Shown here one piece after another: positions 25,763 to 58,465 of a DNA stretch of 64,000 nucleotides; within the stretch, counting starts at the first letter, position 1; each line of letters starts with the position of its first letter. This DNA is from Cnuella takakiae. GTDB taxonomy: Bacteria; Bacteroidota; Bacteroidia; Chitinophagales; Chitinophagaceae. The notes under the pieces were generated by a model. The model was not told where the DNA came from and ran no database searches. It saw only the letters and a list, made by a program, of their open reading frames with translations. The stretch spans positions 3,520,237 through 3,584,236 of the forward strand of contig NZ_MTFE01000010.1 in assembly GCF_001953305.1 (NCBI RefSeq). Reading direction: 5' to 3'. The translations under genes and the position numbers were made by a program.

Positions 25763-25798
25763 AAAGAAGGCCGGATTTACCGGCCTTCTTTGTTTTTC
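25763..25798 (+). terminator. intrinsic terminator of the exopolysaccharide operon
   Basis: Perfect 12-bp stem AAAGAAGGCCGG (25763-25774) / CCGGCCTTCTTT (25780-25791), loop ATTTA, followed by TGTTTTTCC. It marks the end of the plus-strand run that begins at 10395. Confidence 0.93.
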
Positions 25799-55057: not shown

Positions 55058-56539
55058 ATGACCAAAACCACTACCTACCAGATCAATTTTACAGGAGGCA
55101 TTGTATCACCCGGAAGGCTTAAGGAAGTTTTAGGGGTAGCTACCAAAACCCTGATCAAAACAGTGCGTTTTGGCCTGCGCCAGCAATTGCTGTTGGATGT
55201 TCCTGTGAATGCCGCGGATGCTTTTGTAAAGTCTTGTAACGAAAAGCAAATCACCTGTGCTCCTCAAAAAGAGGCGGCACCCAACATGCTTTCCTCCTAC
55301 CCTGCGGCGAGCATCTTCAATAGCGATACCTGGATGCGGGAAGGTGTGTACAAAGACATTTTCAACCAGTTTAATTATACGCCTAAAGTCAAAATTAACA
55401 TCTGCGACAGCACCCAGAATCTGGTTCCTTTTTTCACTGGTCATATCAACTGGATCACCGCATCTGCCAACCATTTCTGGCACCTCTTCATTCGTTTCCC
55501 CAAAACCCAAACCCTCTATTGCTGGCCCGAGCAGGTGTACACCAACGATATTGCGGTACTATCCAAAAGAATAGAATCCGTATTGCTCCACAACCTGGAT
55601 GCATTTGCGCAGTCACCTACTACTGCGGGCAGTGCTTTATTTGCTGCCGTAAAAGAAATGGGATCTTATTCGGCAAAGTTTGCCGATACACCCTTATCGC
55701 TTCAACGCTTTTCTTTGCCTTATTACGAAGGATTCAACAAGGGAGAGTCGGGCTTGTGGCTGGGCCTGTACCGCAGGGATGAAGAATTCCCGGTTGCCTT
55801 TTTGCAGGAACTATGCGCCATTTGTACCGATGCAAAAATTGGCCAGTTGTACACCACACCATGGAAAAGCCTGATCATAAAAGGCATACCCAAGGAGGAC
55901 ATGGTGAAATTCGACTGGGTGTTGGGCAAGTACCGGATCAATGTACGCCATGCCGCCAACGAACTGGCCTGGCAGGTGGAAGACGGTGACGACAGTGGCC
56001 TGCTGATCAAACGGCACCTGATCAGGCATTTCGACAAGGAAGATGTGCGCACTTTCGGGTTGAGTTTTGGCGTGCAAAGCCGCCCAACTTCCAGCATGTT
56101 TGGTTCCATCATCATTCGCAAGCAGCAGAACAAAAATCCGCACAAATTAAAATCGCTGGAGCGCTTCGACCTGCTCCATACCCGCGACTTCAATCCTAAC
56201 GCCTCCGATCTCGTGCTGTTCCGAGAAGGACTGGAAAAGGAGTATCTGGGCACCTACCTGGTATCGCTGTGCAAAATGTTTTACGAGCAGCAGGAAGCCA
56301 AACTGGATATTGCCGCCCATCCGAAGGCAGTAGCTCCAACTCCCGTTGCTACCTCCCGCATCCTGCACCAGTGCAAACATTGCTTGACCATTTACGATGA
56401 ACAGGAAGGCGATAGCACACAAGGTATTGAGGCAGGCACTTCTTTTTACAACCTCCCCACTAGCTACGTATGTCCTACATGTGACAGTGGAATAGAAGAT
56501 TTCAAAACGGTGGAAAGCAGCAGCTTACAACTGGCTTAG
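55058..56539 (+). CDS. rubredoxin-tailed protein with siroheme-reductase-like body lacking cofactor cysteines
   Basis: 493 residues. The C-terminus is a rubredoxin domain (~437-493) with the four iron ligands Cys439, Cys442 (CKHC) and Cys472, Cys475 (CPTC). The preceding ~430 residues recall the ferredoxin-like half-domains of nitrite/sulfite reductases: GGIVSPGRLKEVLGVATKTLIK then FGLRQQLLLDVP, and KIGQLYTTPWKSLIIKGI further on. The siroheme/[4Fe-4S] pattern Cys-x5-Cys...Cys-x3-Cys is absent. It starts 37 bp after the nitrate reductase fusion, so it probably passes electrons to, matures or regulates that enzyme or NirBD. Rubredoxin domain is certain; the homology of the body is a by-eye judgement. 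Confidence 0.75.
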   Translation: MTKTTTYQINFTGGIVSPGRLKEVLGVATKTLIKTVRFGLRQQLLLDVPVNAADAFVKSCNEKQITCAPQKEAAPNMLSSYPAASIFNSDTWMREGVYKDIFNQFNYTPKVKINICDSTQNLVPFFTGHINWITASANHFWHLFIRFPKTQTLYCWPEQVYTNDIAVLSKRIESVLLHNLDAFAQSPTTAGSALFAAVKEMGSYSAKFADTPLSLQRFSLPYYEGFNKGESGLWLGLYRRDEEFPVAFLQELCAICTDAKIGQLYTTPWKSLIIKGIPKEDMVKFDWVLGKYRINVRHAANELAWQVEDGDDSGLLIKRHLIRHFDKEDVRTFGLSFGVQSRPTSSMFGSIIIRKQQNKNPHKLKSLERFDLLHTRDFNPNASDLVLFREGLEKEYLGTYLVSLCKMFYEQQEAKLDIAAHPKAVAPTPVATSRILHQCKHCLTIYDEQEGDSTQGIEAGTSFYNLPTSYVCPTCDSGIEDFKTVESSSLQLA

Positions 56540-57100
56540 GTCTTCTGGTGTATTGAAGTTCAGGAAGGCAGGATCATCTCCCACCGGGATGATTTTTGTT
56601 TTTAAATACGACAGCACATGGTGCATGCTGAAGCGTTGGAGCAATCCTTGTAGTACCAGTTGCAATACATGATGTAAACCATCGGCCCGATACCAAGCAC
56701 ACAGGGGTTCTACTTGATCATCATGTTTGAAAAGTATGGCTTGTGCATCATTTTCCTTTGATGCATCGATGATTTGCTGTAAGAAATAAGGTTTCATCTC
56801 CTGCATATCCACAGCCAGCACCAGCAGGTCTTCGGCTGGCATTGCCAAATTAACGGAGAGTATACCTTTTAACGGCCCGCCTACTTGTAAGGACGGGTCA
56901 TCGCAAATAAGCGTAGCGCCTGGCAGCACTTGTTGGTAATCCAATATATTATGACCTGCCACTGATACAACATAAGATAGCCCGCAATCCTTCATCAGGG
57001 CTGCAGTATGCATAACCCAATGTTTCCCGTTGCGCAATAGCAATCCCTTGTCGCTACCCATTCGGGAACTGGCACCACCACAAAGAATTACTCCAGTCAT
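56525..57100 (-). CDS. mobA: molybdenum cofactor guanylyltransferase
   Basis: Predicted MobA, 191 residues from the ATG at 57100; the longer frame to 57265 reads into the hairpin array and is rejected. It attaches GMP to Mo-molybdopterin to form the MGD cofactor used by nitrate reductases of this class. The nucleotide-binding start TGVILCGGASSRMGSDKG and the later LAVDMQEM metal site are clear; LCAWYRAD and PVGDDPAFLNFNTPEDL match the C-terminus. It converges on the rubredoxin gene and overlaps its end by 15 bp. Confidence 0.92.
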   Translation of the reverse strand: MTGVILCGGASSRMGSDKGLLLRNGKHWVMHTAALMKDCGLSYVVSVAGHNILDYQQVLPGATLICDDPSLQVGGPLKGILSVNLAMPAEDLLVLAVDMQEMKPYFLQQIIDASKENDAQAILFKHDDQVEPLCAWYRADGLHHVLQLVLQGLLQRFSMHHVLSYLKTKIIPVGDDPAFLNFNTPEDLSQL

Positions 57101-57148: not shown

Positions 57149-57357
57149 CAGAGCCCGTAGGGCTCTAATTTTAATAGCCGCCGGTGCAACCGGCGGATGC
57201 AACGAAATAACGACCACAGTGAGCTCAACCCCGTAGGGGTTGAACCTTTCGTTTTTGTTGTTCAACCCCTACGGGGTTAGCCGTTTCAATTCAAGGCGGA
57301 CTACTGTTACCGCCGGTTACACCGGCGGCTATTCAGATTAAAGCCCTACGGGCTTTG
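57149..57357. repeat. mirror-ordered array of six perfect hairpins
   Basis: Six short palindromes, each with a 3-nt loop: A 57150-57166 (7-bp stem, loop GTA), B 57178-57196 (8 bp, GCA), C 57225-57243 (8 bp, GTA), C' 57264-57278 (6 bp, TAC), B' 57310-57328 (8 bp, TAC), A' 57340-57356 (7 bp, TAC). The order A-B-C-C'-B'-A' makes the whole element a large imperfect palindrome; the outer 48 bp on each side (57149-57196 and 57310-57357) are inverted copies with only a few differences. The GTAG core resembles REP elements. No gene in the array and no transposase nearby. Confidence 0.92.
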
Positions 57358-57550: not shown

Positions 57551-58465
57551 TCAATCCTCCGTATGCCTTAACCCTTCCGCCACTTTAAAAATGTGCGTGA
57601 TATAGGGAAACACTGCATCCATGGTTTCCTCTGCACCGCGGGTACTGCCCGGCAGGGTAAGCACCAGGGTGTTTTGAATAAACCCTGCTACCCCCCTTGA
57701 TAACATGGCATAAGGCGTGCGCTCCTGCCCATAGCTGCGGGCAGCTTCCATGATACCGGGAATCTGCCTATCCAATAAAGGCGTAATGGCTTCTGGTGTT
57801 ACATCACGGCGGTACAAGCCAGTACCGCCACAAAAGATTACAAGGTTGAAATTTTCATTCGCCAGCTGGCGAGCCTTGTCCTGTATGGTTTGAAAATCAT
57901 CGGGGATGATGGTATAGGAAGCAGTGGTCAAACCATGCGCTTCCATCTTTTGCATAATGGCCTTACCAGCAAAGTCCTGCTTGGTGCCAGCCGATACGCT
58001 GTCGGAACAAACCACCACGGCAGCAAGGATATCAAGTTGCAAACCCTTGCTATCCGATTTGCCACCTTTCTTGGATGCCAGTTTGATATTTGCGATTTCC
58101 ACCTCTTTATCAATAGGCTTCAGCATGTCGTATAGGGTGAGCGCAGTAATGGCCGCACCATGCATGGCTTCCACCTCCACACCGGTGCGGTAAATGGTAT
58201 GCACTTCAACAGAGATGGTTATGCGCAAACCTTCTATTGCATAAGCGATAGCGGCATATTCCACTGGCAGCGGGTGGCAATCCGGAATTACATCACTGGT
58301 CTTTTTGATGGCCAGCAAACCAGCTGCACGGCCAAATTCAAACACATCACCCTTGGGCACTTGCTTGTTCTGAATGGCACCAATTGTTTCCGGCTTTGAA
58401 ACCTGCAACACAGCTGTGGCAACGGCCTTGCGCAGGGTAGTGACTTTATGGGTAATGTTTACCAT
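57551..58465 (-). CDS. moaCB: bifunctional molybdenum cofactor protein MoaC-MoaB/MogA
   Basis: Fusion of two Moco enzymes, 304 residues. Residues ~1-147 are MoaC (cyclic pyranopterin monophosphate synthase): KGDVFEFGRAAGLLAIKKTSDVIPDCHPLP region and EVEAMHGAAITALTLYDM hold the conserved Lys, His and Asp residues. Residues ~150-304 are MoaB/MogA (molybdopterin adenylyltransferase): VVVCSDSVSAG, FCGGTGLYRRDVTPEA, and the closing LPGSTRGAEE. It would act after MoaA and again after MoaD/E. No moaA lies in the window. Confidence 0.93.
   Translation of the reverse strand: MVNITHKVTTLRKAVATAVLQVSKPETIGAIQNKQVPKGDVFEFGRAAGLLAIKKTSDVIPDCHPLPVEYAAIAYAIEGLRITISVEVHTIYRTGVEVEAMHGAAITALTLYDMLKPIDKEVEIANIKLASKKGGKSDSKGLQLDILAAVVVCSDSVSAGTKQDFAGKAIMQKMEAHGLTTASYTIIPDDFQTIQDKARQLANENFNLVIFCGGTGLYRRDVTPEAITPLLDRQIPGIMEAARSYGQERTPYAMLSRGVAGFIQNTLVLTLPGSTRGAEETMDAVFPYITHIFKVAEGLRHTED

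Follow-up and report, generated by a model that had tools for sequence, protein, structure and literature searches.

An array of six hairpins was found at positions 57149-57357 of the window, i.e., the whole 64,000-nt stretch of the Cnuella takakiae genome analysed here (contig NZ_MTFE01000010.1). The array is situated in a 450-bp gap between a mobA-like gene (56525-57100, PF12804) and a moaC-moaB fusion gene (57551-58465, PF01967 and PF00994), both of which lie outside the element and are encoded in the same direction on the minus strand. Every hairpin has a loop of 3 nt, and the left series A-B-C is mirrored on the right as C'-B'-A', as the initial annotation of this DNA had described. From its anatomy, its fold and its copies elsewhere in the genome, the array as a whole, which is assigned to neither strand, was recognized as a composite palindrome and a probable non-autonomous element.

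On the left, the outer hairpin A is AGAGCCC(GTA)GGGCTCT (57150-57166, plus strand). A 12-nt linker, counted from the 6-bp core of A to B (57166-57177, plus strand), ends in the tag ATAG (57174-57177). It is followed by hairpin B, CCGCCGGT(GCA)ACCGGCGG (57178-57196, plus strand), which resembles a repetitive extragenic palindrome (REP). The left spacer (57197-57224) leads to the inner hairpin C, TCAACCCC(GTA)GGGGTTGA (57225-57243, plus strand), and the central loop between C and C' (57246-57259) is the site of the transposase gene in gene-bearing relatives. The right side, assigned to the minus strand, consists of C', AACCCC(TAC)GGGGTT (57264-57278), B', CCGCCGGT(TAC)ACCGGCGG (57310-57328), and A', AAAGCCC(TAC)GGGCTTT (57340-57356). 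The right spacer (57279-57309) lies between C' and B', and B' is followed by CTAT, i.e., the tag ATAG of the minus strand. Spacers and central loop have no strand. The outer 48-nt arms are 90% complementary, in agreement with the near-identical inverted copies first noted, and C and C' together form a 19-nt perfect inverted repeat. The triloops of the initial annotation were confirmed, but the loops of B and B' (GCA and TAC) are not mutual reverse complements, and perfect pairing in C' covers 6 bp.

Folded as single-stranded DNA, a 231-nt stretch at the array reached -73.8 kcal/mol, whereas shuffled versions averaged -31.2 (z -11.4) and none of 200 equalled it. The opposite strand gave a z of -11.6. 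The motif CCCGTAGGG, chosen after the array had been seen, occurs four times in the window, always within the array (mean of shuffles 0.38; 1 of 100 shuffles reached four). Two exact matches to GCCGGTNNNACCGGC were found in the window, both within the array, with one further match at 25770 containing one mismatch. Above 16 bits, the arm model R1, described below, recognized the two arms of the array and nothing else in the window. Rfam families were rejected for the array, as three weak matches far under the cut-offs (best 28.5 bits, gathering threshold 290.8) were attributed to chance. The plasmid collection searched with the array gave no match.

In its own genome, reported as 99.68% complete, the array search produced 54 rows. 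Thirteen rows with E >= 0.6 were removed before places were counted, which left 12 full-length dispersed copies and six partial, decayed or masked places. The order A-B-C-C'-B'-A' is retained in all 12 full-length copies, with single hairpins decayed in some, e.g., C at 4282915 and A' at 477282. Mean pairwise identity among the 12 copies was 85-95% in the hairpins, 77-79% in the A-B linkers, 35-47% in the spacers and centre, and 27-32% in the flanks. The spacers keep their length to within a few bases (23-33 and 28-32 nt) and do not keep their sequence. B and B' of these copies thus have the form of two inverted REPs with a spacer of kept length. The copies end at A and A', no shared terminal sequence lies beyond, and 4 of 224 rows of pairwise BLAST among the copy loci fall outside the elements. 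By eye, the copies at C1:298073 and C1:954106 have both spacers in common and different flanks, and the former lacks the stretch between C and C'. Single occurrence, unclear boundaries and random dispersal of the hairpins had been named in advance as observations that would count against a composite element; none of them applies to this genome.

Two genes of the genome matched PF01797, both of the Y1 type with the motif Y---Q--HH. One was found inside a cluster of array elements at about C1:2175000-2177100 (64.3 bits; cut-off 23). The cluster transposase comprises 148 aa from MNTYRQ and carries the motifs DHIH, GWQD, and YVKNQKEHH. In 17 aligned transposases, one of which is a fragment, both histidines of the HUH motif, W-Q, Y, and Q are invariant. 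The NCBIfam IS200 model NF033573 scored 50.9 bits, under its cut-off of 55. The transposase profile searched against PDB retrieved eight sequences at E <= 0.01, all named transposases and one of them ISHp608; the matches 2xm3 and 2fyx are of IS200/IS605 types. The predicted protein has the motifs of TnpA-Y1 subclass 1.2 (DH[IV]H, WQ, and YIKNQKEHH, consensus Y---Q--HH). It also agrees in length (about 148 aa), in occurrence in Bacteroidetes or Cyanobacteria and in low copy number, i.e., two Y1 genes in the genome and 80 collection loci, given below, that all bear titles of Bacteroidota groups. The transposase is assigned to subclass 1.2 (IS200-like class 1) by motif.

In gene-bearing relatives, a Y1 (HUH) transposase gene of about 148 aa is flanked as A-B-C-[transposase]-C'-B'-A', with the same kinds of hairpins written in other stem letters. 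Searched as DNA, with two candidates scored in each genome, the array matched 8 of the 294 genomes of the family, and all eight have a transposase of at least 54% identity. A finder without tag requirement recognized 50 A-B pairs in 42 loci, many of them own-genome copies, and none in ten local shuffles. The linker is exactly 12 nt in 43 pairs, in which the B tag is ATAG in 26, ATAA in 8 (mostly one tandem array), GTAG in 6, and other in 3. The tag GT[AG]G, expected at the 5' hairpin foot in REPs and in their paired form, the REPINs (REP doublets forming hairpins), is therefore not the common one, and ATAG predominates. The arm model R1 comprises 36 of 56 arms found by a finder whose conditions were full pairing in A, 7 or more of the 8 pairs in B, and a tag of either TAG or TAA. 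Six of the eight pairs of B show variation on both sides; in A, the outer pair alone varies. Pairing was 98.9% and doubly changed cells numbered 57 against 13.8, which shows the variety of the stems but is partly by construction, because arms had been selected for paired A, paired B and tag.

The arms and the transposase occur together. R1 matched 61 of the 294 family genomes, with counts per genome that are lower bounds, i.e., at least 21-25 at the upper end. Arms were found in 23 of 27 genomes with a close transposase and in 38 of 267 others (p = 3.9e-14), and in 9 of 13 close-transposase genomes after removal of the 14 genomes that had supplied model arms (p = 2.2e-5). In a class-wide draw of 247 genomes, unused for the model and with the own genome excluded, the counts were 17 of 20 and 23 of 226 (p = 1.1e-12). 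For both draws, the bit-score cut that defines a close transposase was chosen once the lists had been viewed and falls into a gap (150.9 to 129.6 in the family, 138.0 to 120.4 in the class).

The arms also stand at the gene itself. The count covered 36 close loci, 27 from the family draw and 9 from the class draw, and omitted nine distant rows belonging to the L062 tandem array. Within 200 nt of the transposase gene, mirrored arms were found at the 25-bit cut on both sides in 20 loci, on one in 10, and on none in 6. At any score to E 0.01, the counts were 23, 9, and 4. The search proposed in the initial annotation, for a Y1 gene flanked by the same hairpins, was thus successful in relatives, and such a linked gene is what REP systems show. 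At 24 distant Y1 loci, R1 gave 11 weak matches of 16.7-24.0 bits. A finder based on geometry alone recognized both arms at 14, one at 14, and none at 8 of the close loci, and 0 of the 24 distant loci. In a tree of 49 proteins (26 close and 23 distant), the close transposases formed one group with support of 100/98.

Other arrangements were observed near such genes. At L062:2171-3046 (genome G244), a long head-to-tail array beside the transposase gene is built of CCACCGGT and CAACCCC hairpins in alternation, repeating about every 70 nt. In the family, triloop hairpins with 7-bp stems were also seen a few hundred bases or less from several more distant Y---Q--HH transposases (L124-L142), and these may represent additional types of element.

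The arms were also found in the public collection, in a one-genome-per-species contig scan. The best 80 of 523 relatives, at least 12 of which are records already used earlier, belong to Chitinophagaceae (Niabella, Flavisolibacter, Segetibacter), Chryseobacterium, Epilithonimonas, Kaistella, Spirosoma, Runella, Carboxylicivirga, Dysgonomonas, and many other Bacteroidota. The geometric finder gave both arms at 43 of these 80 loci, one at 28, and none at 9, i.e., an A-B arm on at least one side in 71. Counted by stretch, A-B arms were present in 114 of the 160 flanks, compared with 1 of 79 distal stretches and none of 800 shuffles. This finder detected no arm at the Dysgonomonas locus or at one Spirosoma locus, and one doubtful arm at the other Spirosoma locus. 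A further hairpin between B and the gene was found in 77 of 112 arms and in 1.1% of shuffles, with the gene ends of cut loci approximate. In 40 of these arms the inner hairpin is mostly of the type CAACCC...GGGTTG.

One gene-less array was found beside a full element. In genome G089, 181 bp separate it from the full element. The left arm of the gene-less array has 97.7% identity (88 nt) and the right arm 94.9% (137 nt), and the end of the transposase ORF of the full copy is retained on the right side. This pair illustrates internal deletion as one route to a gene-less array. The same origin may be supposed for the window copy.

The array is probably a non-autonomous, three-tier REPIN-like mobile element of about 209 bp, i.e., a gene-bearing A-B-C-[Y1 transposase]-C'-B'-A' element minus its gene. 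This reading draws on the anatomy of the array, the dispersal and borders of its copies, the gene linkage in relatives, the co-occurrence of arms and transposase, and the one internal-deletion derivative. It favours the suggestion of the initial annotation that a REP-type (Y1) transposase moves the element, since 12 ordered copies are bordered at A and A' and a Y1 gene lies among the copies. Single-strand chemistry, the choice of hairpin, the positions of cleavage, and an action in trans on the array of the window are inferred; the array would be transposed by the subclass 1.2 enzyme. When the stretch becomes single-stranded, e.g., on the lagging-strand template, the hairpins would fold. The transposase, with its HUH motif DHIH and the presumed catalytic tyrosine in YVKNQKEHH, would recognize hairpin B together with the 5' [A/G]TAG tag, a putative counterpart of the GTAG guide of REP sequences. 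Hairpin A, usually 12 nt outside B, would mark the border, and C and C' would close the centre. The enzyme would then cut and rejoin single strands, by which, it is proposed, no target duplication forms. At the 12 own copies, one of them without a left flank, the mean longest direct repeat was 3.58 nt against 3.55 nt for mismatched flanks, i.e., no signal of duplication.

Several observations weigh against this interpretation. The gene of the own genome is flanked by a half element A-B-C on one side and by a larger element, read in part, on the other, with no single clean pair. Arm matches without a close transposase were found in the 38 of 267 family genomes counted above, and the reverse in 4 of 27. 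Four of the 36 close loci (L074, L076, L077, and L078) have no arm match at any score and form a subgroup in the tree (98/89). A gene-bearing pair in genome G123 is 98% identical, and its shared sequence continues beyond A and A' as far as inverted ends like CTATCGTGTGGACA. Three copies in genome G239 (L162, L163, and L164; 94-96% identity) lie within an imperfect inverted repeat of about 17-20 nt. Empty sites were sought at the window site and at two G239 sites and none was found, and no transposition event was seen. Finally, the spacers are near saturation in most own copies and the hairpins are conserved, unlike in a plain recent burst, so that selection or conversion acting on the hairpins must be assumed.

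At the window site, mobA was found in 4 of 18 genus genomes, i.e., the own genome and three with 36-42% identity. The A/B/C hairpins are absent at those three, where adjacency to moaCB is unchecked. For the two G239 sites, pieces of both sides occur in other genus genomes, never adjacent and kilobases apart where the contig is common. At L074, L076, L077, and L078, other hairpins were observed near the gene, e.g., GAACTCC(TAC)GGAGTTC or TCCGCCC(TAC)GGGCGGA, and in this subgroup the element may have changed along with the enzyme.

The combination of near-saturated spacers and conserved hairpins means that the copies are old or that the hairpins are maintained. In an alternative reading, the array is mobile in origin, is now domesticated, and is selected for a host role, e.g., transcription end, insulation, protection of mRNA 3' ends, or a nucleoid or gyrase site. 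Hairpins that are 85-95% identical beside spacers at 35-47% would suit such a role. The same holds for the placement between genes: all 12 copies are free of a spanning ORF (>= 90 aa), and one ORF overlaps one copy by 69 nt. Between 56900 and 57700, three terminator-like sites were also predicted where 1.0 would be expected, and two of the three are array hairpins. However, the neighbour genes of the 12 copies are codirectional in 7 cases, divergent in 3, and convergent in 2, and T-runs behind the stems are not conserved across the aligned copies. The copies thus show neither the kept T-run nor the place after gene ends of an intrinsic terminator, and the terminator or insulator once suggested for the window array found no support, in spite of its two terminator-like hairpins. 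Moreover, the arms follow the transposase, and REPINs, too, are reported to combine conserved ends with a spacer that is less conserved but retains its length (PMC3116915). A host role is considered unlikely as the explanation of the array.

The arrays could also be moved by another insertion sequence (IS) with terminal inverted repeats and target duplication, with the hairpins as its cargo or as part of its miniature inverted-repeat transposable element (MITE). The repeat enclosing the G239 copies would suit this explanation, and by eye a direct repeat of 8-9 nt was seen at the ends of two of the three copies, with an inverted one in the third. The G123 gene-bearing copies between ends like CTATCGTGTGGACA would suit it as well. 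However, the own copies stop at A and A', with neither the further terminal inverted repeat nor the duplication of such a MITE, and the repeats around the arrays are not the same in G123 and G239, which do have the A-B-C architecture in common. Transport by another IS is therefore judged very unlikely as the explanation of the arrays. The G123 pair was also considered as proof of autonomous movement, and this use was dropped because the shared stretch extends past A and A' into the ends of another element. Gene-bearing elements adjoin ends like CTATCGTGTGGACA in two genomes (L086 and L087 in G123, L060 in G237), as though the transposase element were cargo of another IS. The inverted, tagged intergenic hairpins and the retained spacer length would likewise fit an ordinary REPIN whose class 2 REP-associated tyrosine transposase (RAYT, Y---NP type) is encoded elsewhere in the genome, but this is disfavoured as hardly credible, since both PF01797 genes have Y---Q--HH instead of Y---NP and the REP transposase 4ER8 is not among the eight PDB matches. 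The REP/RAYT likeness first noticed thus held for the link to a Y1 gene and failed for the classical class 2 RAYT.

The flanks of the second Y1 gene in this genome (C1:584775, YIANQEAHH) carry another hairpin, CCCACGGT(TTCA)ACCGTGGG, preceded by TAG. The pattern CCCACGGTTNNAACCGTGGG has 44 sites in the own genome (G000:C1), and the reversed control has none. The gene lies in locus L036 (G000:C1:583275-586619). In the loci inspected, an inner hairpin of the AAACCGTTTCAACGGTTT type was observed, and this second set is seemingly a two-tier version of the same plan. A separate hairpin set at the second gene agrees with the rule, stated for class 2 systems in PMC6006769, that each transposase has its own REP family.

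The non-autonomous element proposed here was compared with known systems. Like REPINs, or bacterial interspersed mosaic elements (BIMEs), with their RAYTs (PMC3116915 and PMC2817692), it has tagged hairpins in inverted orientation, conserved ends around a spacer that is less conserved but retains its length, dispersed intergenic copies, and linkage to a Y1 gene with the same hairpins on its flanks. It differs in having three hairpins per arm instead of one, an A-B linker of usually 12 nt, a tag that is mostly ATAG, a transposase that is class 1 by motif, and 12 full copies in the own genome, whereas REPs usually number more than 100. The IS200/IS605 family (IS608, ISDra2) includes the nearest solved structures of the transposase and has hairpins near its ends. 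Members of this family are not known to make a target duplication, as in the array elements, and the hairpins of IS608 have the same direction whereas the arms here are inverted. Gene-less copies predominate in the own genome, which has one gene of the cluster-transposase type, unlike the run of near-identical gene-bearing copies expected for an autonomous IS200/IS605 element. The gene-less deletion derivative in G089 resembles a MITE, but the ends here are hairpin arrays without target duplication, and the hairpins outlast the spacers.

The transposase agrees with TnpA-Y1 subclass 1.2, as described in PMC6006769, in DHIH, WQ, YVKNQKEHH, length of 148 aa, Bacteroidota host, and few copies per genome. 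That 2018 survey listed the subclass as without REP and left it without IS properties, whereas the clade with these motifs carries a specific hairpin element here. The automatic search of the survey required GT[AG]G tags, which most of the present elements do not have. CGTC-tagged repeats are mentioned in Bacteroidetes (PMC3733652), and the tags of the array elements differ from them. RayT genes are named in Chryseobacterium, with no repeats mentioned in the part of PMC11194056 that was available. In the literature searched, neither a three-tier architecture nor REP-like elements for subclass 1.2 were described; subscription papers and supplements lay mostly outside this coverage, and an earlier description is possible.

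Tentatively, we propose that subclass 1.2 Y1 transposases are the motors of phylum-wide multi-tier hairpin elements with [A/G]TAG tags, which may or may not prove to be a third kind of REP system. This kind would combine a class 1 IS200-type enzyme with inverted REPIN-type ends, and each transposase lineage would have its own hairpin set, of which the present genome would contain two. REP elements and Y1 transposases are a model for the long retention of a transposase with a short-repeat partner. If the link is true, subclass 1.2 gains a substrate, and a defined DNA becomes available for in vitro testing. REP-type inverted ends on an IS200-type enzyme would also be relevant to how one system arose from the other. 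For genome annotation, such arrays between Bacteroidota genes need not be terminators.
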